Shown: positions 816 to 22,959 of the stretch, piece after piece
Layout of the letters: each line of letters starts with the position of its first letter
Position numbering within the stretch: position 1 is the first letter of the stretch
Assembly: GCF_022458985.1 (NCBI RefSeq)
Contig: NC_061784.1
Coordinates: 24,610,545 to 24,674,544 of the forward strand
DNA: 64,000 nucleotides
Direction: 5' to 3'
DNA from: Mugil cephalus
Taxonomy: Eukaryota; Chordata; Actinopteri; Mugiliformes; Mugilidae
Notes under the pieces: generated by a model
Told to the model about the DNA's origin: nothing
The model's database searches: none
The model's input: the letters and a program-made list of their open reading frames with translations, nothing else
Program-made: the position numbers and the translations under genes

Positions 816-3800
816 ATGTCCAGGATCTCAGAGAGGGAGTGGAGGGACACTCTGGTGTCCATCCTGGAGGAGCTGGACGAGACACAGTACGAGAAGACAC
901 TGTCACATCTCAAAAAGATAAAACAAAGCGTGAAGAATGGAAAGTCCAGATTTAAGATGGTGGATGTGATCGTACAGCACTACGGATTAGAGGGATCCAT
1001 CAATACCATCAGTGGGATCATGAAGAAACTTCCCAGGAATGATGAAGACATCCAGAGTCTGTTGAGACCTTTCATGGACAAACTGAAGAAGACAAAGAAA
1101 ATGAGTGAGTCATCAACACAAACTGAGAATCAAGATTTTTTTTTTTTTAAAAAAGTTGATTCATACTTCCTGTTGGGTATTTGTTAACTTCTCCTCCTTC
1201 TCCTCCTTCTTCGTCTTACTTTTCTCCTTTGTACCTAAATATAAAGCTTCTGTGTTTTAATTCTTGAACTCAGATAAACACTTTTAACTCTGTGTTGAAG
1301 CTTCATCTTCAGGATTTAAGAAGAAACGTGTTGTGAGTAATTCAGGTTCTTCAGCTTACGAAGACGAAGCTGAAGCTGGTGAGTTAACACCATGAAAGAC
1401 GTGTCTTTACTGTTTGAAATGTTTCATCACATTAAAATGAAACTGAACACCATAAAAAAAAAACACTAACGTTTCCTGTTTTAAAGACGAACCAACGAGT
1501 CAACAGCCTGTGCAGGTAACAGCTCTGATCACACTCATTTACACAACATGGTCTTAGATACTGACTTTAGTTAAAGTTCAAACTTTTTCTTTTCCAGGAG
1601 AAAAAACTTCCGTTGTGGGTGAGTGGATTCATTTAGGTCATTAAAGAACATTCAAATGACTTTGAGTTTTGAGTCATATTTATGCAGAAATGTAAAACAT
1701 TCTGGAAAACATAACATTTTTAAACTATATGTTGATTTCTTCCCAGAGAAAATCCATCCGTGATCTGAAGATCGACCGTGACCTCGGCCAAAAAGCCATA
1801 GCTGGGAAGGTGGTTCAGAAATCAGGTCTGATAACATATCAGACAAAAACCAAGGAGCAGAAGTTTTTCTTTTATTTGGGAGTGGCTGACGACACAGGCA
1901 GCATTAAAGTGATGGTTTATGGGAAAGAGTTCTTCCAGGAATTCCAGGAGAAAACCTGCTACATGTTCAGAAACATAATCATGGATGGGGATCTCATGAA
2001 AGTCACCAAACAAAGCCTTTATTCAGTGACGAGCGCCATAAACATCCCCGAGGATCTGGAGCTGGAAGCTCGGATGCTGATTTCTCAGAAGCCAGTTTCC
2101 TTCATTGCAAAGGCCAAAAGTTATGACGACAAGACGATCGTGAGCGTTGAAGGAACTGTGGAAGAGGTAAGTTCCCATCAGACATTCAGCAGCACAAACA
2201 GAACGGTTGAATTCCCTTAAAGACAAATCATTCAAGGGTTAATTGATGTGTGATACTGGCTAATTTTATTGTATTGACAAATACACAAGTATTGTACAAT
2301 ACCAGGCCAAGTAAAAGTTTCCACCTGGATCTAACTAAGCTCATAGTCCAGTGCCTCCTGGTGGATCATTAGTTCATGGTGATTATCTTCAAGTTATTAA
2401 AGACCAACTGATGCAATGAGGAGCTTCTCATTTCCTCCACATCCCATGGTGGTGGAGAATATGTTAATCTTGTGGAGGAGATGTTAGTCTGGTGGTGGAG
2501 GAGATGATGTTAGTCTGGAGGAGAAGAAGATGTTAGTCTGGTGGAGAAGATGTTAGTCTGGTGGAGAAGGGTCAAATCATTGGCTGCATCAAGCAGAGGA
2601 AACATCTAGAAACTACTAAAACTGGCTTAAGACCTGTCCAAGCACGAGGGAGCATGAGACCAGACCAGAGTCCAGACCTGAACCCAGAGAGAATGTTTGG
2701 GATGAGCTGGAGACTCAGACTCTGACATCATCAACACAAGATCTGAACTAAAAACACTGGATGGAAGAAACCTGGAGACACTGGAGAAGCTTCTTATTGA
2801 ACCACTGGAGTCAAAGATAAAGGAGTGGAAGACATTGTATTTTGACCAGTGTATTTGTGCTCCATGTGTCTGATCGCTGATTGGTTTCTCTTTGTCTACT
2901 TCCAGGAGTTGAGTAACGGTGACTTTGATCAAGTCTAGATATCTGGTTTCAGTTGTTTAACGTGAAGGTGTTTAAAAGTTGGTTGAATCTTCTGTTCTTT
3001 TTTCTCAGATTGGTTCCATCGAACACGTCTCAATAAAAAATAAACAGAGAAAGACAGAGAGGCTGGAATTCACAATTCATGACGAATCAGATTCCATCAC
3101 AGTCAAACTTTGGGGCAAAGAGACCAGTGAGCTGAGAGGGAAAACAGTTGGAGACTACGTCAGAGTGATCAACGTTAAGACCAATCGCTACAACGACACA
3201 GTCTCCCTGAACTCAACGGACTACACCAAGATTTTAAAGGTAAATGTTTAACCTTCAACCTTTGAAATAAACTTACATTTCATCTCCCAAGTCAAACTCT
3301 GGTCTCATCTGTCCACTAAACATTGTCCCACATGTTCTTTGTGGACAGAGAGCAGTGTCTTTGGTTGTTGAGTGGATTCATCAACATGAACATCAGCCAA
3401 TGTGAGAGAGGCCTTTAGCTGCTTAGAAGTTCCCCTGGGTTCCTCTGGTTCCTCTCCCACTATGATGGAGTGATGTTTGTTGGTGGACCACTCCTGTGGA
3501 GGGGAACAGTCGTCTTCAATCTGTCTGACTCTCTGTGGATTATTTGTGGCTTCCAGACTCTTTACAGATGGTTGTGGAACCTTTTCCAGCCTGATGAGCA
3601 ACAACAACTCTTTTTCTGAGCTCCTCACAAAGCTCCTTTCATCTGTTGTCATCACACACTTCAACACAAACATGAGACAAATCCCTGATTCATAGAAACT
3701 GAACCAGGACCTGAGTCTCACTGATGGAAACTCTTCTGAACTCATGATCCTGGTTTGACCCTAGAGGAGCTCCTCTCTGATCTGAACACTGACTCGTTTT

Positions 3801-4127
3801 AGTCTCATATTTCTGTTTCATGTGTCTCATTGGCTTCTCTTCGTCTTAATCTGTTCTTTGGTGCAGATGCAGAGCGCTGCCGTCCAGGATGTCGACATTC
3901 AGATCATTGGGATCGTGAATGCCAGCAGGGTTGAGACGGAGCTGGATGCAGAGATCAGCGGTCAGATAGTTGGTCTTGTCGTGGAGTCTTCACTTCTGGC
4001 GAAAGCGTTTGGCCTCAGACTGAGTGGCAACTTTAGAGAAAGGCTTCTGGAAATAATGCCTCTGTCAGCAAAAGCAGAAATAAATGGAAGTAAGATCATC
4101 AGAATAGTAGCTGATACAGAGATGTAA
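816..4127 (+). CDS. PYD-linker-tandem OB-fold protein, 438 aa (PYHIN-like architecture)
   Basis: Seven coding exons are seen: 816-1104, 1313-1378, 1487-1515, 1598-1618, 1747-2166, 3009-3239 and 3867-4127. All have GT/AG borders and matching phases, and together they give one frame of 438 codons plus stop. Residues 1-96 are a pyrin-like helical death-fold domain (LEELDETQYEKTL, then MVDVIVQHYG, then a PRNDEDIQSLL helix). Residues 97-135 are a short linker with a basic patch FKKKR at 98-102, a possible nuclear signal, and an acidic stretch. Residues about 150-245 look like an OB fold (FFFYLGVADDTGSIKVMVYG). Residues about 268-352 look like a second OB fold (FTIHDESDSITVKLWGKE, GDYVRV). Residues 353-438 are an unrecognised C-terminal module. 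The domain order and the IPEDLELEARML segment between the OB folds recall HIN-200 domains of AIM2/IFI16, while VKLWGKE also recalls RPA-type OB folds. A DNA- or RNA-binding, inflammasome-type role is inference. Introns hold transposon relics. The start is the first ATG after the leader acceptor. Confidence 0.78.
2280..2840 (-). mobile_element. Interspersed repeat (Tc1-like derivative) with internal minisatellite, in a PYD-OB gene intron
   Basis: Between exons 5 and 6 lies a repeat whose reverse complement matches the 35380-36120 segment of nup98. Shared parts are the flanking text (dinucleotides around the 'gcctcctggtggatcat' block and the 'gcttgatgcagcc' block) and a tandem unit built on GGTGGAGGAGATGTTAGTCT (about 2440-2570). 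Only about five units are present here. The segment after about 2640 resembles degenerate Tc1 transposase sequence. Borders are approximate. Confidence 0.5.
3290..3765 (-). mobile_element. Decayed Tc1/mariner-like transposon fragment
   Basis: On the minus strand, short frames resemble the N-terminal DNA-binding part of Tc1 transposases (an ELRKRVV, AHQAGKGSTTISK type helix-turn-helix block), with frame disruptions. The same fragment recurs at 52200-53060, 58240-58690 and 62000-62400. It lies in the intron between PYD-OB exons 6 and 7, in antisense orientation, and is not functional. Confidence 0.65.
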
Positions 4128-5385
4128 AGGTTCTGATACAGATTCATGAAATGAGTTGAAGTAACGAACATTAATCTGCTTCGTGTCTGATATTTTCTTT
4201 AAGTTTGTTTTCATGTGAATCTTGGTGAAGGGAGTCCACAATGAACCAAGTTAAAACTAAAGAAAGAAAATGGTAAATGGGTAAATTTAATCAATGAAAC
4301 AAAGAACCAGAAAGAGAAGTGAAGGACAAACGTGTCAGTAATTTCAAATAAATAAAAAGCTTTTTCTTGTTTTTTGACTGAATCATGTTAGTAGAAAGGA
4401 AATTAAAAGTGTAAATACTACAGAATGAATGGTTTGTTGTTTTTGTTTGTTTTATTTCTTTGTGAATTTTAAAGGCATTTCTTTTAAAAGTCAACTTGAA
4501 AAAAAAATACCAAAAAAAGGAAAATGTGTCACAATATTTCAATGCATTCTGAGCTGTTCCTGTTTTTAGTTTAGTTGAATGTGTCTCATCTCATCACTGC
4601 TCATTTCTCAATAAAATGAATGAATTCAGTCGTTTGTCTTCATTCTTTGTCTCTGAGTCTGAGGAGCTGAATAAAAAATGAAAAACGTTTCCGAGATGTT
4701 GAGAGTTTGCAGACGGCTGCAGGAAACATGAAACATTATTTACAGAGACTCTTCCTCTTCCTGGATCCAGGATTTGATTCCTCATGGTAACTAGGAGAAA
4801 TCAGAAGGATCCACGTGAGCTGTGATAGATTCATGTCTTTATAAATCATCTCCATCTGCAAACAACATCTATTAAAAACTAAAACTAGAAAAGTCTGTCA
4901 GGGTTCTCAGTCCAACAGCTCAGCCTTTAACACAACAAACAAGAAAACTGAAGACACAAATTTTCAGAGGATCATCCCAGTCTTCAGTTCTAAAGAACGA
5001 ATGTATTTACTCCAATCAAAGTCTTCAACTGCATCCAGTTCGTGGAGGTTCTTCTTTTTGTTTGCTGGAAATCTCTCCATAATGTATTGTCCTATAAAGC
5101 CATAAACATTGATTTCTGGTCATTTTAAAATATTCAAGTTTATGTGTTGCAATGATTCAATTCTTGATTAATAATTTGATTAGAATAATAAAATATTATA
5201 AACACATGCAGGTTTGTTGGAGAGAGATTGGTGGTGTGTTTGGGTTCATAACATTAGTGTAGTTATATATATTAATGAAGTAGTTGTTGTTTGTATAAAT
5301 GATGTTTTGACGAATAAAAAAAACAAATACACGTTCAAAATGGCCGCCATGCAGAGAAGAAGCTTCGTGTGGGCGGGAAGATGTT
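4128..5385 (+). other. 3' flank of PYD-OB gene 1, with duplicated 3' end block
   Basis: No further coding exon is seen. Several AATAAA signals occur; the one at about 4610-4615 sits in a block (CTCATCACTGCTCATTTCTC then AATAAA) that recurs at about 14,990 and 17,110, so it is probably a duplicated transcript end. A second shared block, a GATCCAGGATTTGATTCCTC stretch, is at about 4762 and recurs near 10,410 and 15,285. A third starts near 4880 and recurs near 10,640. These mark the borders of the tandem duplications. Confidence 0.5.
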
Positions 5386-5557
5386 GGACTGAACCATTAT
5401 CCTCAGAAGAGGGGTGGTGGTGAAGGGAGTTTAATTTATCAGTCTAACTTGTTGGTCTCTACCAGGTTCGTCTAAACGGTGCATGAGACGTTTCCTGTTC
5501 CTGCCACTTTCAGCAAAATATTTTCACTTTGAAAACAAGCGACGATAAAAAGGAGAA
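5386..5557 (+). promoter_or_regulatory. Leader exon region of PYD gene 2, with IRF-like site
   Basis: This is a duplicate of the 1-297 leader region. It ends at 5557 before GTGAGT. At 5521-5530 the minus strand reads AAAGTGAAAA, close to an IRF/ISRE half-repeat. PYD gene 3 has the same site at 11857-11866, but gene 1 has diverged there. A regulatory role is inference. Confidence 0.35.
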
Positions 5558-6099
5558 GTGAGTGTAGTTTTTTATTTATTAAAACGTGGATGTTTCTGAT
5601 TTAGAAGATGTACCTATCTGGTTAAAGAGTTAAATAACTATTACATTTTAAAAACAGATTTAGTGAATTACAGTGAGTAAAAGGAGTCAAAAATAAAAGC
5701 ATAATAAGGCAGACTGTATGAAAAATATATAAAACATAAAAAGACATATGAATATACATAAATAAAAATCTTAAGTTAACACCGTCCGTATCAGACCAGG
5801 ACATCAGTAAATAACAGAATAAGATCCATCACATGGTTCCAGTAGTTAACGAGCATTTAACATTTACTTTCTAATATGATGAATGAATGCTGTTTTATGT
5901 AAGTGGTTATTATTACTATTTAACACCAATACATAGACATATACAGTCCAGAATATTCACCAGAAAAACCTGCATCAGCTGGGACAGAGCTTCAACCAAT
6001 CAGAGCAAAGAACCATTGACGGCTGCTTCTTAAAAAATGTCTTTCCTGTATATTTCCTAATATCTCTGATTCTAAACAGTTCTCTTCTCCGACTCAGAC

Positions 6100-6480
6100 A
6101 TTTAGTTGTAAATTGATCAGATGACGTGTATGACGACAGTTACAGGCGGTTTATACTACTGAGTTCAGATGATGCAGATCCTGATGTTGTAGCTGAAAAA
6201 AGAACAGGAGCTGAATTGGTCCTTTTTTAGTATTTAAATGTAAGTAGAGCTGTGATTGGTAGGAAGGTAGGTGACTGGCTGCAGTATAGGCTACATAAGC
6301 TCCACCTCCTGCATATTAGTGGGCGGGGTCAAACTAAAACACTAAGGCCGTGTCCGAAATCGCCACCTTACGCCATTTTGTTGTGGTGTCCGAAACCTTA
6401 GTGATCAAATTCTGTGTCCTATATAGGGCCCTCAAACCAGTGATCCAGTGTCACTAGTGTCCATGTGTGGAGCAGAGCGT
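6100..6480. repeat. Duplicated upstream repeat of PYD genes 2 and 3
   Basis: It contains a block starting GGCCGTGTCCGAAATCGCC and the phrase GACGTGTATGACGACAGTTAC. Both recur at 12450-12800, and the second also recurs near 7640. The first block looks like a widespread fish repeat (MITE-like), but I cannot name the family. It belongs to the segmental duplication that includes PYD genes 2 and 3. Confidence 0.4.
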
Positions 6481-6620
6481 AGGATTAATTAAACCCAAAC
6501 ACCAGTGAGTCTGGAGGACGTATTTTATATGTAACTTTCTTAATATTCTCATAAAATCAGAGTATTTCCTGATGAATGTTTCGTAGACCAGTGAGTCCGT
6601 GGTCTCTCTTCAGGTCAGAC

Positions 6621-7380
6621 ATGTCCAGGATCTCAGAGACAAAGTGGAAGGAAACTCTGGTGTCCATCTTGGAGGAGCTGGACGAGACACAGTACGAGAA
6701 GACACTGTCATTTCTCAGAAAGATACCTCGAAGTAAGAAGGATGGAAAGTCCAGAGTTAAGATGGTGGATGTGATCGTACAGCACTACAGATTAGAGAAA
6801 TCCATCTCTACCATCAGTGAGATCATGAAGAAACTTCCCAGGAATGATGAAGACATCCAGAGTCTGTTGAGACCTTTCATGGACAAACTGAAGAAGACAA
6901 AGAAAATGAGTGAGTCATCAACACAAACTGAGAATCAAGATTTTATGAAAAGTTGATTCATTTTAAGTCGTCCGAGATGGTCATACTTCCTGTTGGATAT
7001 TAATTAACTTCTCTTACTCCTCTCATTCCTCTTCTTCTTCCTCCTTCAGGAGTTAAGACGACGAACAGTGTTGTGAGTGATTCACATTCTACACACAACA
7101 AATACGAAGCTGAAGCTGGTGAGTTAACAGTCCAAATAAACCAGACATTTACAATGCTGCTACTATTCCTCCTCAGACCCAAAGGGACCTCCTGAACAGA
7201 GAAGAGGAGAAGGAAGAAGAATATGAGGAAGAGGAGGGAGAAGAATATGAGGAAGATGGGGAGGAAGAAGAAGGGGAAGAAGAATATGAGGAAGACGGGG
7301 AGGAGGGAGAAGAATATGAGGAAGACGGGGAGGAAGAAGAAGGGGAATATGAAGAAGAGGAAGAAGAATATGAAGAATAA
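6621..7380 (+). CDS. PYD protein with acidic Glu/Tyr-rich tail, gene 2 (171 aa as spliced here)
   Basis: Exons are 6621-6909 (PYD, 289 nt, same length and phase as gene 1), 7050-7072, and 7177-7380 with the stop. The sum is 516 nt in one frame. The PYD (residues 1-96) is nearly identical to that of gene 3. The tail has about 67 residues and is mostly E, Y, D and G, in EEEYEEEEGEEYEEDG-type repeats. Exon 2 has two GTGAGT-type donors, at 7073 and 7119. The first keeps the acidic frame open; the second gives a short arginine-rich end (PKGPPEQRRGEGRR). No OB exons were found downstream. It could be a PYD-only-like regulator of gene 1, but that is inference. An in-frame ATG at 6576 lies before the splice acceptor and is not the start. 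Confidence 0.6.
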
Positions 7381-7793
7381 GAAGAAGAGGAGAAAGAGGG
7401 GCAAGGGGAGGAGGAAAAAATACGAAGAGGAAAAGGAGGAACAAGTATATAAGAGGGGAAGAAGAAAAGGGAGAAGAAGAAGAGGTGGACAACCAGCAGG
7501 ACTTGAGGGACAACAGTGATGCTGTGGACTAGAAGGACCTGGCTAGACTCTAATTTCTCAGGAAGCTCAGGTCTTTCAATGTGTGCACTGAGTTATTAGA
7601 GTCTTTCTACCAGTCTGTTCTTCGCTGTGGTTTGTTGGATGACGTGTATGACGACAGTTACAGGCTGTTTATACTACTGAGTTAAGATGACACAGTACTA
7701 TGACAAGAGCTGTGATTGGTCCTCTTGGCAGCATTGTGTTCCGTCTCATTAAGTTTTTAGAAGATTATCTGAGTCTTCACTTCTAAAGAACTA
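7381..7793. other. 3' flank of PYD gene 2
   Basis: Purine-rich sequence continues past the stop to about 7520, then comes unique-looking sequence with a second copy of the 'gacgtgtatgacgacagtta' block at about 7638-7658. No gene is seen. Confidence 0.4.
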
Positions 7794-8324
7794 CAGTCAG
7801 TGCGTTTACATGCACGTGAAAAAATTGTCTTAATTGGACTATAACAGGAGAACTTAAGTGCATGTAAACAAGTTACTCCAATTAAAATCAGAGTTCTCAT
7901 TATCCGATTGAGACACACAGATAATGACATTGGAATTCTTTTTTCTTCGTCATGTATATGCTTAATGCGTGTGCGCATGCTCCACAACCGCTGCGCTGGC
8001 GTGTGACCCCGGAACAAAAACATCCAAGAAGATAAACACGACTAGAAGAACCGTCTGAGGGACAGCGCGGATCTTACCTGCACCAGAAGTAGCGCAAACA
8101 TTACGTAAGAGATTTAAAAATGTTCTATTATCCGTCTGGTTGTTGTTTAAATGTCTGACACATGAACGACTCTAGTTTATTATATCACGTAATAGGTCAA
8201 CCAGAAATCGGGCCGTATTAACGTGGTATTATCCCGCTGAAAAGACACGTATCGCCCCCTAGTGTGGAGGAGGAGAACAGTTATTAGATTTTCTTGCGCT
8301 GCATGTAAACGTGGACAAGGACTG
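7794..8324. mobile_element. TA-flanked MITE, 531 bp
   Basis: The left end reads CAGTCAGTGCGTTTACATGC and the right end reads GCATGTAAACGTGGACAAGGACTG in shortened form (gcatgtaaac ... ggactg). The ends are imperfect inverted repeats, each flanked by TA. This is typical of non-autonomous Tc1/mariner-type elements. There is no transposase frame inside. A Harbinger-type origin is less likely given the TA flanks. Confidence 0.55.
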
Positions 8325-8509
8325 TAGTCAGAAAGTAGAACTTAGAGCATAGCTCCATTAAACTCTGCATGTTAATGCAACTAGTGGTGTTAAAGTGTTC
8401 CTCCTTCTTGATTTCTTTCTTTTTCTTTTCGTATGTTTGTCACATTTAAATGTTTCTGATCATCAAACAAATCAAAGTTAAAATACGTAAACACAACATG
8501 CAGTTTTTA

Positions 8510-10075
8510 AATGAAGGTTTTTATCATTAAGGAGAAAGAAATCCAGACCTCTATGGTCTTTTATGGTGGTGAACTGTTTGCTCCTCTCTTCTGTTGAAAC
8601 ATAACTTAACTGTGGTTCATCACCTGAGTTCAGTTCTTGGTCCGGAAAAGGTTCTAAAGCCATTTCTAAAGCTTTGGGACTCCAGAGAACCACAGTGAGA
8701 ACCATTATCTACAAATGGAGGAAACATGGACCAGTGGAGAACTTTCCCAGGAGAGGCCGGCCCAATTAAGGTCAGAGTTCACATGAGAGACCAAGTAAGT
8801 TGGCAAAGAGGACAAGAGTAACTTCAAACAAAGGGGCTTTTATTTACCCAAAGTATAGAATATCAAAAAGTTCTGAAAATGAAAATAAGGACTGGGCCCA
8901 TAAAAGAGGTCAAATTAACAGAACTGCACAAAAAGTCAACTAACAGAAGACACAACAGACTTAGAGGGGTTAACTCAAACACTGGACAAAAAAGACAAAA
9001 GCTAACTTACGAACAAAGCAGATCAGAAAAATGAACTCATTTGAACAAACAATCTATATCCAACCAAACCAAATACAATTACTAACTGTCTAAAGCAAAC
9101 AATAAACACAACTAAAGCACTAAATCTCCCCCCCATGGTGCACCGGCCCTTGGGTTGGCCCAATCAGGGATGCTATAAATTGGCCGAGCTTGTGGGGGCG
9201 GACCCTTTTAACTGGAGGATCCACGCATTAGCACCAGCAGCACCAGCAGCACCGGTAACTCAAAAAAGGATTAGAAAACAATACTGAAACAAAGAGTACA
9301 AAAGCTAACTAAATCTGCATGCTCAAATAGAAAATTAATGTACTGTCAAATAATAAAGTGTGTTGTATGAAACCAAAAACCTGTGTGATTTATTTCAATA
9401 CTTAATCTTAAACTAATAAACCAACTTAATTGAACGTATAATGTGCATAAACAAAATATGGCTAACTCAAATATAGAAACCAATGTGATAGTGTGGGTGC
9501 CGAGGGTCACGGCTGTAGTTATCACAGTTCATAACTCCACCATCACAAAGAGACTGGCCTAACATGGCCTCATATCAGAGTTCAAGACCAGAACCACTAC
9601 TGAGCTAAAAGAACATAAAGGCCAGAAAACATCTGGAGGACCCCAAGACTTTTGAGAAAATACTCTGTGAACCGATGAGACAAACGTTTTGGAAGGTGTT
9701 TGTCCCACTCCATCTGGAGTCAGTGACAGCAGCAGTAAAACCTGGTCCTGGTAGAGTGCTGGTCTTCAGGACCCGGAAGACTTGCTGTGATTAATGGAAC
9801 CATGAGTTCTGGTTCTACCTGAAGGAGAACGTCCGTCTGTCTTAAGAGAACTTGGACAATGATCCAGAACACAGCAGCAAGTCAACCTCTGAATGGATGG
9901 AGACAAACTACATGAAGACTGTGGAGGAGCCCAGTCAGAGTCCAGACCTGGATCCAGACCTGGATCCTACTGAGATGCTGTGGCCTGACCTTAGAAAGGA
10001 GGCTGATGCTGGAGAACCCTCCAATGAGGCTGAACTACAACAACTCTATAAAGACGAGTGAAACAAACTGGGTAA
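8510..10075 (+). mobile_element. Tc1-like transposon relic split by an insertion
   Basis: Plus-strand text from about 8620 (GKGSKAISKALGL-like helix-turn-helix, then VENFPRRGRP) and from 9532 to about 10060 (catalytic-half phrases such as NDPEHSSKSTSEW and SQSPDLDP) fits a Tc1-family transposase. It is interrupted by an insert at 8782-9526. Many frame disruptions make it inactive. The DPDLDP repeat shows a small internal duplication. Confidence 0.75.
8782..9526 (-). mobile_element. Unclassified insert (LTR-like) inside the Tc1 relic, 745 bp
   Basis: GTTCA occurs at 8777-8781 and again at 9527-9531. Removing the stretch between them restores the expected Tc1 order. Read on the minus strand, it starts TGTGATAACTAC and has an AATAAA near its far end, which would fit a solitary LTR, but the far end is not a clean CA. 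The family is not determined. Confidence 0.4.
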
Positions 10076-11107
10076 AATAAATCAAAAAGAGACGTTGGGA
10101 GTTTCCAGACGGCTGCAGATGTGAAAGCTTTGTTTGAGGGTTTGTTGAGCTGTGGCTCTTTAATTTATCTGCATGTCAGAGCCCGAGGGTTCAAACGTGT
10201 CTGTACTACATCCCTTTATTAGTTTTACTCAGGTGAAAGTGAAAGCTGAGCATTAGGCGGGAACAGGAAGGACTCAGCCATTGTTCAGAGGATTTCTGTG
10301 GATTAACGACTGAATTTGGACAAAGTAAAATATATGAGAATTTAAAGTGTTTGTATAGAGGTGTATATTTCTATATAGTATTTGTACTTTGACCATTCCT
10401 CTTCCTGGATCCAGGATTTGATTCCTCATCATAGCTCGGAGAGATCAGAGGGAACAACGTGAGTAACAATAAAAAACTGATGTAAAATCAAACATTTGTT
10501 TCTGTAACATTAGAAAATCTGATGAAACAGACAAGTACGACTACCAGCTCCTCTGGGAAATATGGATCCACGTGAGCTGTGATAGATTCGTGTCTATAAA
10601 TGATCTCCATCTGTAAACAACACGTAAGAAACATCTGTTAAAAACTAGAAAAGTCTGTCAGGGTTCTCAGTCCATCAGCTCAGACTTTAACACAACAAAC
10701 AAGAAACTGAAGACTTAAGTCTTTAGAAGATTATCCAAGTCTTCAGTTCTAAAGAACGACTGTATTTATATTTAATGAAAGTCTTCAACTGGATTCAGTT
10801 CGTGCCGGTTCTGTTCTGTTTCACATATTCTAAATACACTTTCAACTGGAAATCTCTCCGGGATCTATTGTCTCCTAAAGCCACAAACATTGATATGTTT
10901 AAGAAAAAAAAGACTCAATTCTTGATTAATATTAATAAAATATTATATACACAAATGCAGATTTGTTGTAGAGAGATTGGTGGTGTGTTTGTGTTCATAG
11001 TATTAGTTTCATAGTAGTGTAGTTATATATTAATAAGGAAGTTGTTTGTATAATGTTTGTCGACAAAAAAAAAAAAAAAAAACACGTTCAAAATGACCGC
11101 CTTCCAG
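10076..11107. other. Duplicated flank between PYD genes 2 and 3
   Basis: No coding exon is recognised. It is mostly a diverged copy of sequence after gene 1 (compare 4680-5340) and around 15,090-15,320 and 17,215-17,430. It includes the GAAAGTGAAA site listed separately and an A-run at about 11066. Confidence 0.45.
10235..10244 (+). promoter_or_regulatory. IRF/ISRE-like site GAAAGTGAAA
   Basis: The sequence exactly fits the GAAANNGAAA consensus bound by interferon regulatory factors. It sits in a conserved duplicated block that also holds AGCATTAGGCGGGAACAGGA. Copies at 15211-15220 and 17347-17356 read GAAAGAGAAA and still fit. It lies about 1.6 kb upstream of the leader exon of PYD gene 3. 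Function is inferred from the consensus only. Confidence 0.4.
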
Positions 11108-11117
11108 AGAAGAAGCT

Positions 11118-11585
11118 AGAGTTGTGACGTTCATGAACGAACCGAATCTTTTGACCGGCTCAGTAACATGAATGATGGGAACCAAATCGCGTTTGTTTGG
11201 GAGCCGTTCTTTTTTTTTCTTTCATATACATTAGCTCTATTTTAATTTGAATTTTTTACAAAGTTACTATATGCACCTCAGGACAGTTCACTAGTCCATT
11301 GTAGAGTACACATTTCATTTAATTTATATAATTTTAAAATATTGTTTTGAGATTCTGTGTTGTTAAAATGTTCTTTTTTGAGTTGCAAATTATTCTGATC
11401 CAAATCTCAGTCCATCATTCCTCCCTGTGATTATTTACAGGATAAAATTAATTAACCTCAGGCTGGTTTCTTAAAAGTGAATAAAAATGAAAATGAGCTA
11501 AATGAGCCAGTGTTGTGAATGGCTCTTTGAAATGAACGGATCCTAAAGATCCGGCTCCCTCCAAAGACTCGTAAATTCTATCTCT
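11118..11585. mobile_element. hAT-like non-autonomous element, 468 bp
   Basis: The insert is flanked on both sides by AGAAGAAGCT (11108-11117 and 11586-11595), of which 8 bp is the likely target duplication. It begins AGAGTTGTGACG and ends CTATCTCT, so the ends are short inverted repeats. Genes 1 and 2 lack it at this place (compare 5355-5375). There is no coding capacity. Confidence 0.55.
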
Positions 11586-11609
11586 AGAAGAAGCTCGGAT
11601 GGATGGGAA

Positions 11610-11893
11610 TATGTTGAACCTTTGTCCTCAGGAGGAGAGGAGTGGTGGTGAACAGAACGAGGATCAACAGTCTGATCTACAAACTACAAATTAAATCAAC
11701 CTGGGCAGAAAACAGAGAGTAGTTTAGGAACTAATTTAGATTTAGAACAGGAAAGTTTATAACAATTTCATTTATCAGTCTGACTTGTTGGTCTCTACCA
11801 GGTTCGTCTAAACGGTGCATGAGACGTTTCCTGTTCCTGACACTTTCAGCAAAACATTTTCACTTTGAAAACAAGCGACGATAAAAAGGAGAA
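11610..11893 (+). promoter_or_regulatory. Leader exon region of PYD gene 3
   Basis: This is the third copy of the leader region, ending at 11893 before GTGAGT. An IRF-like AAAGTGAAAA lies on the minus strand at 11857-11866. The following intron runs to the CTCTTCAG acceptor just before 13404 and is a close copy of the gene 2 intron, with one extra segment at about 12800-13290 that partly resembles the gene 1 intron (600-760). Confidence 0.4.
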
Positions 11894-13403
11894 GTGAGTG
11901 TTGTTTTTTATTTATTAAAACGTGGATGTTTCTGATTTAGAAGATGTACCTATCTGGTTAAAGAGTTAAATAACTATTACATTTTAAAAACAGATTTAGT
12001 GAATTACAGTGAGTAAAAGGAGTCAAAAATAAAAGCATAATAAGGCAGACTGTATGAAAAATATATAAAACATAAAAAGAAATATGAATATACATAAATA
12101 AAAATCTTAAGCTAACACCGTCTGTATCAGACCAGGACATCAGTGAATAACAGAATAAGATCCATCACATGGTTCCAGTAGTTAACGAGCATTTAACATT
12201 TACTTTCTAAATACGTAATGAATGAATGTGCTGTTTTATGTAAGTGGTTATTATTACTATTTAACAGACCAATACATAGACATATACAGTCCAGAATATT
12301 CACCAGAAAAACCTGCATCAGCTGGGACAGAGCTTCAACCAATCAGAGCAAAGAACCATTGACGGCTGCTTCTTAAAAAATGTCTTTCCTGTTAATATCT
12401 CTGATTCTAAACAGTTCTCTTCTCCGACTCAGACATTTAGTTGTAAATTGATCAGATGACGTGTATGACGACAGTTACAGGCGGTTTATACTACTGAGTT
12501 CAGATGATGCAGATCCTGATGTTGTAGCTGAAACAAGAACAGGAGCTGAATTGGTCCCTTTTTAGTATTTAAATGTAAGTAGAGCTGTGATTGGTAGGAA
12601 GGTAGGTGACTGGCTGCAGTATAGGTTACATAAGCTCCACCTCCTGCATATTAGTGGGCGGGGTCAAACTAAAACACTAAGGCCGTGTCCGAAATCGCCA
12701 CCTTACGCCATTTTGTTGTGGTGTCCGAAACCTTAGTGATCAAATTCTGTGTCCTATATAGGGCCCTCAAACCAGTGATCCAGTGTCACTAGTGTCCATG
12801 AGTGAGACACATTTAGAATTTTCAGCATGAAAATTTGAAACTTTTTTTTCGTGAACATCACATACTTGTCACGTTTTAGTCATGTGTAAATGATAAGGTA
12901 ATAACCAGGGGAGCGGCGGCAGTCTGAAGCTGTTGGGATTGAGCTCACTATACAGTGCAACTCAACACGGGGAGCAGGGATTACAGACAGGGAAAATACA
13001 CACAATTTTAATTTGTTAGTTTTTTTCAAGGATTCTGTCATTTTAGGTAGTTAATATAACGTTGATGAATGTTCAGCTGTCAATGATCCAACGTTTCCTT
13101 GTAGCTGGTGGAGGTGGAGCAGAGCGTAGGATTAATTAAACCCAAACACCAGTGAGTCTGGAGGACGTATTTTATATGTAACTTTCTTAATATTCTCATA
13201 ATAGTTAATATAAGGTTGATAAATGGTCTCATGTCAAAGTTTTGTTTTAGTTTTTAATTTGATGCTATTGAAACAGGATGTGACATAATAGTGAGAATAG
13301 TGTGGTTTAGCATATTGTTTCCCTCTAACTTTCATACAATCAGAGTATTTCCTGATGAATGTTTCGTAGACCAGTGAGTCCGTGGTCTCTCTTCAGGTCA
13401 GAC

Positions 13404-14165
13404 ATGTCCAGGATCTCAGAGACAAAGTGGAAGGAAACTCTGGTGTCCATCTTGGAGGAGCTGGACGAGACACAGTATGAGAAGACACTGTCATTTCTCA
13501 GAAAGATACCTCGAAGTAAGAAGGATGGAAAGTCCAGAGTTAAGATGGTGGATGTGATCGTACAGCACTACAGATTAGAGAAATCCATCTCTACCATCAG
13601 TGGGATCATGAAGAAACTTCCCAGGAATGATGAAGACATCCAGAGTCTGTTGAGACCTTTCATGGACAAACTGAAGAAGACAAAGAAAATGAGTGAGTCA
13701 TCAACACAAACTGAGAATCAAGATTTTATGAAAAGTTGATTCATTTCATTTCAAGTCGTCCGAGATGGTCATACTTCCTGTTGGATATTAATTAACTTCT
13801 CTTACTCCTCTCATTCCTCTTCTTCTTCCTCCTTCAGGATTTAAGACGACGAACAGTGTTGTGAGTGATTCACATTCTACACACAACAAATACGAAGCTG
13901 AAGCTGGTGAGTTAACAGTCCAAATAAACCAGACATTTACCAAGCTGCTACTATTCCTCCTCAGACCCAAAGGGACCTCCTGAACAGAGAAGAGGAGGAG
14001 GAAGAAGAATATGAGGAAGAGGAGGGAGAAGAATATGAGGAAGATGAGGGAGAAGAATATGAGGAAGATGAGGGAGAAGAATATGAGGAAGATGAGGAGG
14101 GAGACGATGAGGAGGAGGATGATGGAGAAGATGAGGAGGAGGAGGAAGAAGAAGAGTGGCAATAA
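13404..14165 (+). CDS. PYD protein with acidic tail, gene 3 (170 aa as spliced here)
   Basis: Exons are 13404-13692 (PYD), 13838-13860 and 13965-14165 with the stop, 513 nt in one frame. The PYD differs from gene 2 by very few residues (for example SGIM versus SEIM). The tail has 66 residues and is even more acidic, ending EEEEW-Q-stop. Its length differs from gene 2 only by whole codons, which supports this frame. The competing donor at 13907 would give the short arginine-rich end instead. An alternative terminal exon with the same entry phase lies at 14326. No OB exons follow. A role as a PYD-only-like partner or decoy is inference. Confidence 0.6.
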
Positions 14166-14325
14166 GATTAAGAGGAGAGAGGGGTGAGAAGAGGAGGACT
14201 CATCTTTCTGTAACAATTAAGACACTGTGACCATTAATTTTCCTTCTAGATCATTTAACTGTTTAACTCTAGTCCATCCTGATTCACGCCGTTATTATTT
14301 CAGTGTGTTCAGAGTTCCTCCTCAG

Positions 14326-14409
14326 ACCCAAATGGACCTCCTCAACAGTTCTGGTTCTGGTTCTCGGCACCAGAACAAGGCAACGAGGAAAAATCACAAA
14401 ACGAACTGA
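14326..14409 (+). CDS. Possible alternative last exon of PYD gene 3, basic tail (28 codons with stop)
   Basis: After a TTCCTCCTCAG acceptor the sequence reads TQMDLLNS, almost the same start as the acidic exon (TQRDLLNR). It then turns into GSGSRHQNKATRKNHKTN and stops. Acceptor and entry phase match the acidic exon, so it could be spliced instead of it and would give a basic tail rather than an acidic one. No transcript evidence is available. Confidence 0.35.
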   Translation, partial: TQMDLLNSSGSGSRHQNKATRKNHKTN

Positions 14410-15320
14410 ATATAAATAAATATATACCCACACATCTTATTATATTATTGGTACAGTAGCTGTTTAGTAGACGTCATCATTCAGAAACAGAATTCATTTT
14501 TGTTTTTCTTCGTATTCGTATTGTTAACAGTTTGATTTATTGCGCCACCTCCTGAGACGGACGGATATTTATAGAAAACTGTGACAAACCCGATGGTCGC
14601 CCAGAGCGGACGCTGGATAGATTATCTACTTACTGACCTCGGTTGACGCGTACGAAAACACTATGGTTTTCCTTGACTGTGTCGACTATTTCACAGTAAA
14701 TACTGATCCGTTACAAAACCGCATTTAGTTGTAGGAAGTTTGTCGTACATACCTGGATTGAAAAGGGTGCGGTTCCAGTTCGTGGAGGTTCTGCTCGGTT
14801 TGTTCTGTCTAACTGGAAATCCCCCCACGACATAGTTGTGATACAGTTGATATATTTCCTAAGAATAAAAAGATTGACTTCTTCATGAATAACTTGATTC
14901 TAATAATTATATACACAAATGCAGATTTAAGTGAAAAGATTGTCTATTGATTGTTGTACTACACGTATTAAAACCTGTGTCTCTTCTCATCACTGCTCAT
15001 TTCTCAATAAAACGAATGAATTCAGTCGTTTGTCTTCATTCTTTGTTTGTTTCTGAGGAGCTTAATAAAAGAAATGACGTTTGTGCGACGTTGGGAGTTT
15101 CCAGACGGCTGCAGGTTTGAGGGTTTGTTGAGGCATCTCTTTAATTTATCTGGATGTCAGAGCCCGAGGGTTTAAACATGTACTCTATTACTCTATTATT
15201 TTACTCAGGTGAAAGAGAAAGCTGAGCATTAGGCGGGAACAGGAACGATTAAACATTACTTACGGAGACTCTTCCTCCAACCTGGATCCAGGATTTGATT
15301 CCTCATCATAGCTCGGAGAG
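14410..15320. other. 3' flank of PYD gene 3
   Basis: No gene is seen. The stretch at about 14990-15060 repeats the presumed transcript-end block (AATAAA at about 15005). 15090-15310 repeats the flank block with the IRF-like site at 15211-15220. 14430-14980 shows nothing I recognise. Confidence 0.45.
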
Positions 15321-16480
15321 ATCATTTGGGTTTTAAGGGGTTAAGAAGGCCTTCAGCCTGTGTATGACACTGGGAAAAATCAGGAAGTGTGTTACTTCTG
15401 TTATCTCGGGCTCTGTGCAGGACACAGTGATTTATTCTAATATCAGCAGCCTTTAGAAAGATCGGGGGTTTAACTCTTCCATTGTTCAGGTCATCAACAA
15501 ACGGCAACTTTATCTGCAATGTAGCGATGAGGGAGGAACAAACAGGCAGCAGCTCTCACAGCGAGAAGTCTGACCGGGACTTTTACCGATCTGAAAGCAC
15601 CAAAGGCGAGTCGAGCCGGGTCGGGATTTTCGATGTGAAAGGGACCAGAGTGACGGATAAGACAGCTCCTGATAATGAATCCGACTGAAATTGTGAGGAA
15701 ACAGCCGTGGCGAAAAAAGGCAGGAAATTCTTTTTTTGTGAGGAGTGGCTGCGTGAGTTCACCTGTCTGGGTAACGTTAGTCTATTTCAGAGAGACAAAT
15801 TCAATGAACTGCAAATTCTGCTGTTGATACCCACAACATGCAGGGAACACAAAATCTGCTAACACCAACACTACACAATCAAAACACGACACACTGGTCA
15901 AACACAATGCCAGTCTGATACATAACATGTTTCAGGACCTGTGTAATGAACGTGCAACTTCACTTCCAGTTGCATTTAGAAGACAAGAGGCTGCTTTTAT
16001 TAGGAAGTTTCGTTTCAAGATGCCGCCTCAACTTTGACAACTTCAGGACTTCAGGACATTCGATAGTGTTAGCTCACACTCAACGCACTGGGCTCTCGGC
16101 TCCCCCCTTCGCCATCTCCATTAAAAAAAAAGAACTTAATAAGGGGTTGTACTTGCGTGTAAATTTGGGGGGAATTGGCATCAATCTCATTTTCATGTTT
16201 TCATTTTAAAAACTTCTCCATTACTGAACTTTGGCAACAGTCCAATCATACACAGAGGACCACAAAAGCCCCATCACCCTTAGTTACTGTTGCTAGCCTG
16301 TCAGCTTTGTATGAAGGAGTTCACATCATCATCAAGGACAAGTCACACCCGGTTCTCAGCTGTATTAGCTGTTACCCTCCAGGAGGCGCTACAGATGTAT
16401 GACTGACACCCTTTTCAGTGGCAGCCGTCACCACCCTGAACTCTCACATGCAACAATCCACGTAAAACACAATGTGCTAT
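15321..16480. other. Unclassified stretch, probably repeat-derived
   Basis: It holds short open frames on both strands (for example 15526-15688 plus, hydrophilic and Ser/Glu-rich), none of which matches a family I know. It lies between two copies of the duplicated flank, so it may be an inserted and decayed element. Nothing more can be supported. Confidence 0.3.
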
Positions 16481-16499
16481 ACAAGACTTGACTACATTG

Positions 16500-17030
16500 A
16501 CTCTTTAGCTGCAATTATGTCTTTTCTGTATATTATAAAAACCTTCTACGTTTACACCATTGCTGCTACACTTTTTGCACTGCTGCAACAAAAACAATAG
16601 TTTAGTTTATGATTTTGTATATTTTCAATATTTACTTTTGTATTAGTATTCTAACTTTAGCTGTATATTTTGTAAATAGTACGTTCTCTGTACTATTTTG
16701 TACATACTTGTGTTTTTTGCACTGAAAAGGAGAAGCTCTCCAATCTCGTTGTACTGTGGAGATGTAAATAATTATGACCAGAGGCTGAGGTGAGTTGAGT
16801 CCCTTTATTCTCCACACAATTAATGCACTGAAAACGTAAGGTTGTTAGGAGACCAATAAACTCTCTAGAACCAGGAAGCGGCATAAACTCTCTGGTTACT
16901 AAGTAACCGTATAAACTCTAATTCTTAAAGGTACAGGCCCTCTGTTACCTGGGTGAATGTCTTTACTACGCTAACTATTGTGGGTCACCACAGTACGCTG
17001 TATAATGACAATAAAGGACATTGCGTCACA
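16500..17030 (+). mobile_element. 3' end of a common fish LINE-type repeat, split by an insert
   Basis: The text TTTTTTGCACTG, AGGAGAAGCTCTCCAATC and TGTATAATGACAATAAAGG is the familiar 3' tail of an abundant fish retroposon. It is interrupted at 16755-16992. I cannot give the family with certainty. Confidence 0.45.
16755..16992 (+). mobile_element. Probable solo LTR, 238 bp
   Basis: The insert begins TGTGGAGATG, ends TCACCACA, and is flanked by a GTAC 4-bp direct repeat at 16751-16754 and 16993-16996. TG...CA ends, short target duplication and size fit a solitary LTR left by an old retroelement. No internal region is present and the family is unknown. Confidence 0.5.
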
Positions 17031-17039
17031 ACATTTCAA

Positions 17040-17544
17040 CAGATTTTGAGTTGTTGCTGTTTTTAGTTTAGTTTTATTTATGTGTATAAAAAGCCGTGTG
17101 TTTCCTCTCATCACTGCTCATTTCTCAATAAAATGAATGAATTCAGTCGTTTGTCTTCATTCTTTGTTTCTGAGTCTGAGGAGCTGAATAAAAAATTAAA
17201 AACGTTTCCAAGACGTTGGGAGTTTCCAGACGGCTGCAGATGTGAAAGCTTTGTTTGAGGGTTTGTTGAGCTGTGGCTCTTTAATTTATCTGGATGTCAG
17301 AGCCCGAGGGTTCAAACGTGTCTGTACTCTATTATTTTACTCAGGTGAAAGAGAAAGCTGAGCATTAGGCGGGAACAGGAACGATTAAACATTACTTACG
17401 GAGACTCTTCCTCATCATAGCTCGGAGAGATCAGAAGGAAACACGTGAGTAACAATAAAAAAACTGATGTAAAATCAAACATTTGCTTCTGTAACATTAG
17501 AAAATCTGAACCAATCTTTCTGAACCAGACAAGTACGACTACCA
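17040..17544. other. Another copy of the PYD-gene 3' flank
   Basis: 17100-17165 repeats the transcript-end block and 17215-17440 the IRF-site block (17347-17356). No PYD exon precedes it here, so it is an orphan duplicated flank, perhaps the remains of a lost gene copy. Confidence 0.45.
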
Positions 17545-17665
17545 GATCCTGTGTTCAGTTCTAAAGGGCTAACTAGCTTCTTCAGTTCTAAAGGGCTAAC
17601 TAGCTTCTTCAGTGCTAAGGGGCTAACTAGCTTCTTTGAGGCTAACTAGCCTCAAAGAAGACTAC
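17545..17665 (+). repeat. Left part of a 27-bp tandem array
   Basis: Units read GGCTAACTAGCTTCTTCAGT plus TCTAAAG, with variation. The array continues at 20915-21010 and 21285-21555, so the LINE at about 17680-20912 probably landed in it. Confidence 0.7.
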
Positions 17666-17679
17666 TCTGAAAAGAAGGG

Positions 17680-20600: not shown

Positions 20601-20912
20601 AAGACTTCATGATGTAAATTTTACTATAATTCTTCAATAATTATGTTAATACACTCACGTTTAATGACTTCATGTAATTCTTCAGAGAATTTTCTATAAT
20701 CATGTTAAGGTATTTATGTGGTATAATTTCATGTATTATTTATTTTTTTAATTACTATTAGCAGCAGTAATAGTAGGATTATTACTTTTGTGTGTGTGAA
20801 AATGCTGTAATGTTGTAATTGTCGGTGCTTGACCTGATGTGGACCCCAGGAAGAATAGTCTTCATTTCTATGAAGACTAATGGGCCAAAAGACACAATAA
20901 ACAATAAACAAT
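17680..20912 (+). mobile_element. LINE (CR1/L2/Rex-like non-LTR retrotransposon), inactive
   Basis: The frame at 17923-18783 is an apurinic-type endonuclease: HLNICSLKNK, SETHLD, CCCYRPPS, GDMNINW and SDHN motifs are in the expected order. The reverse transcriptase follows in pieces: 19090-19332 (PLPKNN, RPICILPVLSKLMEK), about 19556-19620 (SSGVPQGSSPGPLLYS), about 19648-19690 and 19672-20106 (KLLGVTVDETLSW, LNYCPMVWSS). The catalytic YADD reads YAGD, and stops and frameshifts separate the pieces (for example TGA directly after VNDM near 19620). The 3' end near 20840-20910 holds GGACCCCAGGAAGAATAG and ends in an ACAATAA repeat. The exact 5' end is not certain. Confidence 0.85.
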
Positions 20913-20914
20913 AG

Positions 20915-21555: not shown

Positions 21556-21647
21556 GAGTTGGTGCATCTTCAAGAAACTCTACAAATCCAGCTGTTTTAT
21601 TTCAGCTAATGCTAACTCTTCGTCCTCTTTGTGCTGTTAATGTTAAG

Positions 21648-22348
21648 ATGTCTCAGAAGAACTTTGAGACCGAGTGGAAGACAGCCCTGTCCGATATCCT
21701 GGAGGAACTGGACGGGCCTCAGTTCAAGAAGCTGCTGATGCTCCTGGATTTACCTGAAGGGGTAACAACGGACAAGGACAGAGAGGAGATGCCTCGAATC
21801 CTCATCCAGCACCACGGACTTCAAGACTCCATCACCAGCATCCAAGAAGCCATGGATAAGATCCCCAGGAAGGACGCGGCCGTCCAGGATCGGCTGCGTC
21901 CCTTTGTGGACAAAGTGAAGAGCGGTGAACTGAACGGTCAGAAAAAGAGTGAGTTCACAGAAACACAGCGTCCCAACAGAGACGGTTCAGAAAAATGTAA
22001 CGCAAAGGAACAGGTCTGTAAAATTAAACTCATGTCCTTGTGTCTGGTTGAATGTGTGATAAGCTAACATCCACCAAGGCTACATGCTACATAGCAATAT
22101 TTAGGCTCTTATATTTTAACTAATTTAATCAACTTGGACACAAATTGACACCAAATAAAATAAAATACAGTTGGAGGTTGTTTTACAGGTTTACATCAAC
22201 CTGTAGTTGTAGCTTCACAACATCTGGAAGAACTGGCAGAGGATGTTAGATCAGGTTTGATGAATCAGATCTGAGTCATTTTCACTTTGTTATGAACTAT
22301 TTCCTTATGAACTCATGGATGAATGAATCTCCAACAGAGTTAACCGTT

Positions 22349-22395
<47 letters not shown>

Positions 22396-22834
22396 CTGAA
22401 GTTCAACAGAAGAGTGAACCAATGAAGGTCAGAGAGAGAGACAGAAAAACCAATTTCCATCCATTCATATGTTTGACTGATTTCACCGACATTAATCTGC
22501 TTTTGTTAGAAGAAGAAAATCCAGACGAAGACTCCAGCTAAGCGGATTGTGAGCGCCACCCAGAAGAAGAAGAAGGTTTGTTTTTTCTTAGGATGTCATC
22601 TAAACAAATAGTTGATGTTAATCTGTAGAGAAGAAATGAAAACACTGATGTGGTGATGTTTGTTCAGACCGACGCCGTTGGACCAACGAAGGCCAAAAAG
22701 AAGATGACGGTAGATTCTTCTTTCAGTCAATCAGACAATCTGATCTCTTCAATGTTAAATGAATAAATATCTGTTCATGTGTCTTTCTGCAGGTTCCAGA
22801 GCAGCCGGCAGAAAGACAACTAAATAAAATATGA
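21648..22834 (+). CDS. PYD protein with basic Lys-rich tail, gene 4 (158 aa)
   Basis: Exons are 21648-21948, 22402-22427, 22510-22575, 22668-22709 and 22793-22834 with the stop, 477 nt in one frame with GT/AG borders. Residues 1-100 are a PYD-like domain (SDILEELDGPQFKKLLMLL, then RILIQHHGL, then KDAAVQDRLRPFVDKV). It is clearly homologous to but diverged from genes 1-3, and its donor has the same phase. The tail (residues 101-158) is Lys-rich: KKKIQTKTPAKR, ATQKKKK and TKAKKKM. It could be a nuclear signal or a nucleic-acid-binding tail. A TTTATTTCAG acceptor ends at 21605, so the 5' UTR probably joins there. AATAAA at about 22905-22910 is a good polyadenylation signal. Upstream Met codons in the same frame precede the acceptor and are not used. 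Confidence 0.65.
22347..22395 (+). repeat. (TTTC)n microsatellite
   Basis: About twelve TTTC units lie in intron 1 of PYD gene 4, directly before the exon 2 acceptor, where they may act as its pyrimidine tract. Confidence 0.9.
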
Positions 22835-22959
22835 ATCAGTTCATCGTCACCACTCAGAAGAAGGAGGAGGCTGTTCATTCACAAAATGCTTCATGAAAGG
22901 AGGAAATAAATTCAGTTTAAATTACCTGCTGGGACGTTTTGTTCTAACTGACCAAACAT

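Follow-up and report, generated by a model that had tools for sequence, protein, structure and literature searches.

PYHIN proteins are interferon-inducible, bind double-stranded DNA and seed ASC filaments. The mammalian PYHIN locus lies between CADM3 and a cluster of olfactory receptors, which is a mammalian habit rather than a strict criterion. The second system of relevance here, RPA70, follows the full plan DBD-F, A, B, C. The AIM2-like receptors (AIM2, IFI16, MNDA and PYHIN1; Pfam PYRIN plus HIN) are composed of an N-terminal pyrin domain (PYD), a basic linker and a tandem pair of OB folds. As far as the accessible portion of the source goes, the HIN domain has been reported as coded by two exons and no trace of it was reported outside mammals (PMC3458909). 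The absence of AIM2 in teleosts or zebrafish was stated in the available parts of two papers (PMC9978379; PMC6721725), and the accessible text of another places the origin of the PYHIN family in therians (PMC13253634). Mammalian PYD-only proteins, namely POP3 and mouse p208, p213 and AIM2b, were documented in excerpts of the same literature, according to which PYD-only genes neighbour the mammalian PYHIN loci (PMC3458909, PMC13253634). Nothing on fish PYHIN genes that alters this picture was found in the available portions of PMC7582293, PMC13076529, PMC4007548, PMC6335826, PMC11253629, PMC6447671, PMC7433898 and PMC6005158. The place and phase of the intron inside mammalian HIN were likewise not found in the open literature, so far as its texts were accessible.

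The present locus lies in a stretch of 64,000 nucleotides of Mugil cephalus (the window), in which a predicted PYD–OB–OB gene, gene A, occupies 816–4127 of the forward strand (Table 1). The initial annotation had proposed seven in-phase exons here. Their coordinates agree with our analysis, every one of the six introns is GT..AG, and together the seven coding exons form a single open frame of 438 codons plus stop. The proposed order of PYD, basic linker and two OB folds is borne out by Pfam profiles, splicing and frame. The FKKKR patch is present at residue 98 of the protein, and the segments quoted for the region between the OB folds, IPEDLELEARML, and for the second OB fold, EFTIHDESDSITVKLWG, were located at residues 235 and 295, respectively. 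KKTKKMRFKKKR, which is encoded in exon 2 and includes FKKKR, was judged by eye to be a possible nuclear localisation signal. The initial observation is confirmed for gene A as a predicted gene. The tail encoded by exon 7 carries a net charge of −4 and found no significant match in Pfam or PDB; one other match to this exon was obtained in the genome, a weak one (E 0.97) on C7. The initial annotation was silent on this tail beyond the OB pair, on the three PYD-only neighbours and on the co-linearity with RPA70 DBD-A/B (see below).

Table 1. Coordinates of the predicted exons of gene A and of its PYD-only paralogues in the window.
Feature	Position	Strand	Content	Basis
Gene A exon 1	816..1104	+	pyrin domain (residues 1-96) with the start codon	
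Gene A exon 2	1313..1378	+	basic linker with FKKKR	splice sites, frame, motif position
Gene A exon 3	1487..1515	+	29-nt linker exon, required for frame	
Gene A exon 4	1598..1618	+	21-nt linker exon, dispensable for frame	
Gene A exon 5	1747..2166	+	OB fold 1, linker between the OB folds, strand 1 of OB fold 2	
Gene A exon 6	3009..3239	+	remainder of OB fold 2	
Gene A exon 7	3867..4127	+	acidic C-terminal tail, 86 residues, and stop; no known family	
Paralogue B	6621..7226	+	predicted pyrin-only, 135 aa; exons 6621-6909, 7050-7118, 7177-7226	
Paralogue C	13404..14014	+	predicted pyrin-only, 135 aa; exons 13404-13692, 13838-13906, 13965-14014	
Paralogue D	21648..22834	+	predicted divergent pyrin-only; exons 21648-21948, 22402-22427, 22510-22575, 22668-22709, 22793-22834	

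With the Pfam cut-off at 22.9 bits, the PYRIN score of gene A was 23.1 bits as an exon in the genome search and 19.3 bits in the spliced protein. The PYD of paralogue B, which is 84% identical to that of gene A, scored 30.4 bits, and the PYD exon DNA of paralogue C is 99% identical to that of B. Paralogue D shows 44% identity to the gene A PYD; it scored 22.7 bits in Pfam, just below the cut-off, and 24.6 bits in the genome search, and a lysine-rich tail is predicted for it. Long open frames had suggested acidic tails for B and C, but these were discarded because the splice phase ends both proteins after DPKGPPEQRRG[E/G]GRRI. A single-sequence PDB search with the PYD of B found no PYD. No NACHT domain was found in gene A by Pfam, and among the other PYD loci, four of the 12 with the highest scores (L017, L023, L025, L026) showed a NACHT-type P-loop by pattern. 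Like the mammalian PYD-only proteins, the predicted products of B, C and D contain a PYD without a DNA-binding domain; the three genes lie next to a PYD–OB gene.

Residues 136-438 of gene A, when scanned alone, exceeded the cut-offs of three Pfam models: tRNA_anti-codon with 30.8 bits (cut-off 27), REPA_OB_2 with 29.6 bits (cut-off 27) and HIN with 23.8 bits (cut-off 22.7, a margin of 1.1). Both types of model thus pass on the OB region, in agreement with the mixed HIN/RPA character noted initially, and the two RPA-type models outscore HIN. In the full-length protein, tRNA_anti-codon and REPA_OB_2 each gave 29.1 bits and HIN 20.4 bits, below its cut-off. Exon 5 alone reached 22.8 bits with HIN, 0.1 above the cut-off, over profile positions 9-96, and exon 6 alone gave 24.7 bits with REPA_OB_2, below the cut-off of 27. 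By sequence profile, gene A contains two OB folds, and no further OB domain was found by Pfam. Home-made models gave 29.5 bits for RPA and 21.7 bits for HIN on the OB pair, the best shuffle reaching 12.9 and 13.9 bits, respectively (1895 of 2000 shuffles). In hhalign, the single sequence of gene A matched RPA with 80.3% over 175 columns and HIN with 77.5% over 35 columns out of register, both of which are too weak to rely on. Single-sequence PDB searches with the OB region returned mixed weak matches, the best being Ifi204 (E 0.0018), followed by Ustilago RPA (0.0054), archaeal SSBs (about 0.01) and mouse AIM2 (0.017).

Control scans were employed to read these scores, with the provision that HMMER filters conceal most matches with E above about 0.1. 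HIN matched none of four RPA70 DBD-AB controls (human, Ustilago and the two own RPA1 genes; E up to 10 requested), and REPA_OB_2 matched none of four HIN controls (human AIM2, mouse AIM2, p204 A and p204 B). Because of these two results, the OB region of gene A is, at the level of profiles, a bridge between HIN and RPA, two families mutually unrecognised in these scans. Weak matches of tRNA_anti-codon to p204 B (15.5 bits) and p204 A (12.9 bits) mean, therefore, that the families are not wholly separate. The decoys scanned in Pfam, one reversed version and two of the three shuffles made, matched no HIN or RPA-type OB model. One shuffle matched the unrelated DUF499 with E 6.5e-4, so weak Pfam E-values merit little trust. 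It was also considered that the HIN match of gene A reflects generic OB likeness; this was not sustained, as the four RPA70s, the reversed decoy and the two shuffled ones were all without HIN.

The best domain-by-domain alignment of the gene A OB pair is with RPA70. In all four RPAs, OB1 matched DBD-A and not DBD-B, and OB2 matched DBD-B and not DBD-A; the corresponding pairings gave z 4.6 to 8.6 and the crossed pairings z −1.1 to 1.2. By this alignment, the pair is co-linear with DBD-A/DBD-B. W361 of RPA70 aligns with W310 of gene A and F238 with Y193; RPA has four stacking aromatics, and the other two are without an aligned partner. An RPA-like first loop accompanies the tryptophan in OB2, which grouped in the tree with RPA DBD-B, apart from HIN-OB2, with a support of 93/86 that is below star level. 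In the same tree, gene A is placed about midway (HIN stem 1.54, RPA stem 1.52, gene A branch 1.06). Gene A nevertheless differs from RPA70 by its PYD, by showing no additional OB fold in Pfam and by OB1 loops that are instead of HIN length. It neither follows the full RPA70 plan nor is orthologous to it, the RPA1 genes being two other loci.

These observations suggest that a PYD and a copy of RPA70 DBD-A/DBD-B may have been joined in a fish lineage independently of mammalian PYHIN. Gene A would then be PYHIN-like in its working only, and its kinship to HIN would reflect distant RPA-like ancestry. We regard this as a strong contender, though not quite as the probable course of events. The co-linear match, the higher scores of RPA-type models, both Pfam and home-made, and the tree position, first loop and tryptophan of OB2 all argue for it. 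The genomic context points the same way: among 150 of 185 candidates, searched with an approximate query, 13 CADM3-like matches were obtained, the best of them on C7 and none near the gene A locus, the only C15 match being at 11.9 Mb. Olfactory-receptor-like genes are located 46 kb downstream of the locus, beyond a NUP98/96-like gene, and no gene could be firmly named in the upstream flank (L010-L012). The absence of PYHIN from monotremes and birds, reported in the accessible part of PMC13253634, also fits an independent joining. On the other hand, gene A matches HIN while the four RPA70s do not, its OB1 and linker are in register with HIN, and its exon plan, with OB1 and linker within one exon, is unlike the plan seen in both RPA1 genes of this genome.

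The likeness to HIN is confined to certain parts of the pair. In Pfam, OB1 and the inter-OB linker match HIN in register, and a further alignment pairs them with gaps of 1 and 3 residues only. To this extent the initial statement that the HIN layout is followed closely is upheld; it does not extend to OB2, which is RPA DBD-B-like. Three other comparisons (hhalign, the home-made HIN model and the top PDB match, Ifi204) placed OB1 out of register on the second OB fold of HIN. The whole OB pair against human AIM2 gave z 1.8, equalled by 20 of 300 shuffles, and OB2 against HIN-OB2 gave z 0.3 to 2.9. Little likeness was seen when HIN was compared with RPA directly (five HINs against two RPAs, z −0.2 to 2.5). 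Of 11 basic positions that we take to be DNA contacts of AIM2, gene A retains four by alignment.

Gene A could alternatively be a surviving pre-mammalian PYHIN, mammalian HIN having descended by rapid change from an RPA-like OB pair of this kind. This is a possibility that we hold with some reserve. The domain order is identical to that of PYHIN, the HIN cut-off is exceeded by exon 5 alone as well as by the OB region, and gene A bridges two families with scant mutual recognition. The OB pair is derived from two exons (5 and 6), as described for HIN in the accessible text of PMC3458909, and the PYD-only neighbours recall the mammalian loci (PMC3458909 and PMC13253634, available parts). Exons 5 and 6 meet in phase 0, directly behind VEGTVEE. 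Nevertheless, OB2 is nearer to RPA DBD-B than to HIN-OB2, a number of the alignments to HIN run out of register, no CADM3-like match is nearby, and loss in most non-mammals would be required. The fish host and the extra 86-residue tail are further differences from PYHIN. More tentatively, gene A may be a living intermediate, in which a PYD and an RPA70 DBD-A/B-like pair were fused before the fish/tetrapod split and later became the source of mammalian HIN. Its role in fish would be to detect single-stranded or replication-type DNA via an RPA-like surface. It would follow that AIM2-like sensing is a vertebrate and not a therian invention, with RPA as the source of HIN.

When the whole genome was searched in six frames with the HIN model, no match reached E ≤ 0.001 (E for 635 Mb; gene A is split by introns; two candidates scored), a null that shows no absence because no mammal was among the search controls. 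For exon 5, gene A itself was the sole match found in the genome, and a second copy of the OB exons did not turn up there. A search for viral relatives with a 217-residue query yielded 15 stretches that matched patterns, none of which is a relative. Strict ISRE or GAS sites (GAAANNGAAA, TTCNNNGAA) were absent from four upstream stretches, that of gene A comprising 815 bases.

It is unlikely that two genes have been fused on paper, i.e., a PYD-only gene like B or C and a separate, unrelated OB gene whose start is near exon 5, exons 3 and 4 being chance matches. These exons are indeed tiny, exon 5 is preceded at a short distance by an ATG that shares its open frame, and B and C are without OB exons (within 5341-24000, tblastn with the OB region returned just two matches, both at chance level, E 4.4 and 7.2). 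Nevertheless, the introns are uniformly GT..AG with donors that appear consensus-like by eye, and a polypyrimidine-AG acceptor marks the start of exon 5. Direct joins of exon 1 or exon 2 to exon 5 run into early stops, and exon 3 is therefore needed for the frame. A recently relaxed or non-functional gene A with no sensor role is likewise unlikely: its PYD dN slightly exceeds dS (A versus B 0.095/0.063, A versus C 0.090/0.082), which for A and B is equally compatible with adaptive change or relaxed constraint, and no backup copy of the OB exons was found, whereas the frame runs without stop or frameshift, the splice sites are intact and three curated models still recognise the OB folds.

We consider it probable, on the strength of the sequence comparisons, that gene A is real and intact and encodes, in this fish, a PYHIN-like nucleic-acid sensor with PYD-led inflammasome signalling and PYD-only dampers. 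The OB pair would bind DNA, more likely single-stranded or mixed than the double-stranded DNA of the AIM2 type, because gene A retains the stacking tryptophan of RPA DBD-B but lacks most of the basic AIM2 contacts. Gene A proteins aligned along the nucleic acid would draw their PYDs together, and the gathered PYDs would form a filament and recruit a PYD-CARD (ASC-like) adaptor for inflammasome signalling. A PYD-CARD gene is present on C18 (PYD 76.9 bits, CARD 49.3 bits). Paralogues B, C and D may act as dampers of the PYD filament.

A PYD–OB–OB gene in a fish means that either the PYHIN-type origin predates the fish/tetrapod split or the joining of PYD to OB folds evolved twice. HIN domains and RPA70 are linked by the gene A sequence, and where the HIN domain came from thereby becomes a testable question. 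For the fish itself, gene A is a candidate DNA inflammasome sensor.

Gene A, the seven-exon candidate with a pyrin domain (PYD) and two OB folds, reads through its joined exons, from 816 to 4127 on the + strand, as a single open frame of 438 residues. The stretch is C15:24610545-24674544 of a 635 Mb genome of 24 contigs. The introns are GT..AG throughout, which confirms the seven in-phase exons of the initial annotation; the frame depends on exon 3 and not on exon 4. Residues 1-96 form the PYD, the basic stretch KKTKKMRFKKKR begins at residue 91 and the OB folds occupy approximately 150-352, so that the order of PYD, basic linker and two OB folds proposed earlier is found in the predicted spliced gene. 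The assignment of exon 1 as a PYD was also borne out by Pfam, with 23.1 bits for PYRIN (cut-off 22.9) for the exon alone and only 19.3 for the spliced protein. Exon 7 (3867-4127) adds an acidic tail of 86 residues (net charge -4), which has no significant relative in Pfam or PDB and a single, weak further match in the genome (E 0.97, contig C7).

The OB pair had been said to resemble both HIN and RPA, and both were indeed matched by profile in residues 136-438 (Pfam cut-offs in brackets): tRNA_anti-codon 30.8 (27), REPA_OB_2 29.6 (27) and HIN 23.8 (22.7), the last dropping to 20.4, below its cut-off, in the full-length protein. Exon 5 alone gave HIN 22.8 over profile positions 9-96, with OB1 and the linker in register and tRNA_anti-codon behind at 19.0, and exon 6 alone gave REPA_OB_2 24.7, below its cut-off, and no HIN. 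In Pfam, HIN was absent from all four RPA70 DBD-AB control pairs (human, Ustilago and the two of this fish), and REPA_OB_2 from all four HIN controls (human AIM2, mouse Aim2, p204 A and p204 B; four of the five HIN domains used here), while weak tRNA_anti-codon matches appeared in p204 B (15.5 bits) and p204 A (12.9 bits). Home-made models scored the pair at 29.5 bits for RPA and 21.7 for HIN.

Smith-Waterman z-scores (300 shuffles for whole pairs) of gene A were 1.8, 3.9, 10.2, 8.9 and 7.0 with human AIM2, p204 A, p204 B, mouse Aim2 and IFI16-A, and 7.5, 10.8, 6.7 and 12.6 with RPA70 of human, Ustilago and the fish's own C9 and C15 genes; HIN against RPA directly (5 by 2) gave -0.2 to 2.5. 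Domain by domain (500 shuffles), OB1 scored 6.2, 5.2, 4.6 and 7.0 with the four DBD-A and -1.1 to 0.8 with DBD-B, and OB2 scored 4.7, 8.6, 4.8 and 7.2 with DBD-B and -0.8 to 1.2 with DBD-A. With the five HINs, OB1 reached 0.3, 2.8, 4.1, 6.9 and 6.2 for HIN-OB1 and 3.6, 6.5, 12.3, 5.8 and 5.4 for HIN-OB2, and OB2 reached -1.0 to 1.2 and 1.3, 0.3, 2.9, 2.7 and 1.7, respectively. By these scores the pair clearly follows the A-B order of RPA70, and the HIN likeness lies in OB1, often out of register; hhalign, the home-made model and the top match in PDB likewise paired OB1 with HIN-OB2. A ten-row tree placed gene A between the RPA and HIN clades (stems 1.52 and 1.54). In a midpoint-rooted split-domain tree first and second OBs part weakly (47/49), OB2 groups with RPA DBD-B (93/86, not starred) and OB1 has no resolved place.

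In the alignment to RPA70, Y193 falls at F238 and W310 at W361, while F269 and F386 have no partner; in RPA70 these four residues stack on ssDNA. Of 11 basic contacts of AIM2, four are still basic. The residues kept relative to RPA70 and AIM2 lean towards single-strand binding in the manner of RPA. One exon of gene A codes for OB1 and the linker and runs on into OB2 as far as its first strand, whereas DBD-AB of the fish's own two RPA1 genes is spread over six exon pieces whose breaks match (the C15 gene's first piece is a weak match). These two genes lie at G000:C9:8652000-8668999 and G000:C15:12848000-12865999 (stretches L013-L016). HIN is described as coded by two exons in Cridland et al. 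(PMC3458909); the intron position in mammalian HIN was not found in the portions of the open literature retrieved.

Features neighbouring gene A, with pieces from stretch L030 of the same genome
Feature	Position	Strand	Remark
B, predicted pyrin-only gene	6621-7226	plus	same strand as gene A
C, predicted pyrin-only gene	13404-14014	plus	same strand as gene A
D, predicted pyrin-only gene	21648-22834	plus	same strand as gene A
LINE-like endonuclease and reverse-transcriptase pieces (open frames)	17920-18780, 19624-20103; L030 6064-7050		by eye
NUP98-NUP96-like gene	~24700-44210	minus	Nup96 match 39.7 bits at 25882-26691
Olfactory-receptor-like GPCR frames	50144-51112, 54442-55494, 58903-59934, 62614-63645	minus	Pfam scan of first two

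The PYDs of B and C, tandem copies, are 84% and 85% identical to that of gene A in protein, and their exons 99% identical to each other; D has a lysine-rich tail. The B PYD scored 30.4 bits in Pfam and matched no PYD as a single-sequence PDB query. The 5′ flank of gene A recurs beside both B and C, and stretches around C share its 3′ flank, so these two genes appear to be copies lacking the OB exons. Between the PYD exons of A (816-1104) and B (6621-6909), dN is 0.095 and dS 0.063, with every amino-acid difference falling within residues 1-67 and none in the final 29, a pattern possibly due to fast evolution or gene conversion. A profile search found at least 41 PYRIN places in the genome, four of them in this cluster; at G000:C11:26753337-26802627 PYD exons are densely clustered, together with some CARD exons. 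On C18, a PYD exon is followed on the same strand by a CARD exon, the arrangement known from ASC.

Downstream of the cluster are the NUP98/96-like gene, with several minisatellites and an FG-rich frame seen by eye (43686-44207, no Pfam match), and the olfactory-receptor-like genes, the last three of which begin nearly alike, as does a further such frame in L030. Unlike the mammalian PYHIN locus, this one is without the CADM3 anchor, because the best CADM3-like matches sit on C7.

Teleosts are described as without AIM2 genes (PMC9978379), PYHIN as having arisen in therians or, elsewhere in the same paper, as placental-specific (PMC13253634), and DDX41 as the sole member of a list of cytosolic DNA sensors identified in teleosts (PMC4588145). 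Among the matches listed from the open PMC literature (titles and abstract starts), no fish PYD–HIN or PYD–RPA gene was reported; some fish annotation in NCBI or Ensembl possibly carries an automatic ‘AIM2-like’ label.

A PYHIN-like sensor is the best explanation of gene A, of which the domains alone are directly observed. Nucleic-acid binding leading to a PYD filament and ASC signalling is established for AIM2/IFI16. By analogy with these proteins, the OB pair would serve as the nucleic-acid binder, and crowding of the protein along its ligand would start a PYD filament, with an ASC-like adaptor relaying the signal. The predicted B, C and D parallel the pyrin-only proteins at mammalian inflammasome loci, and such neighbours may limit signalling by gene A.
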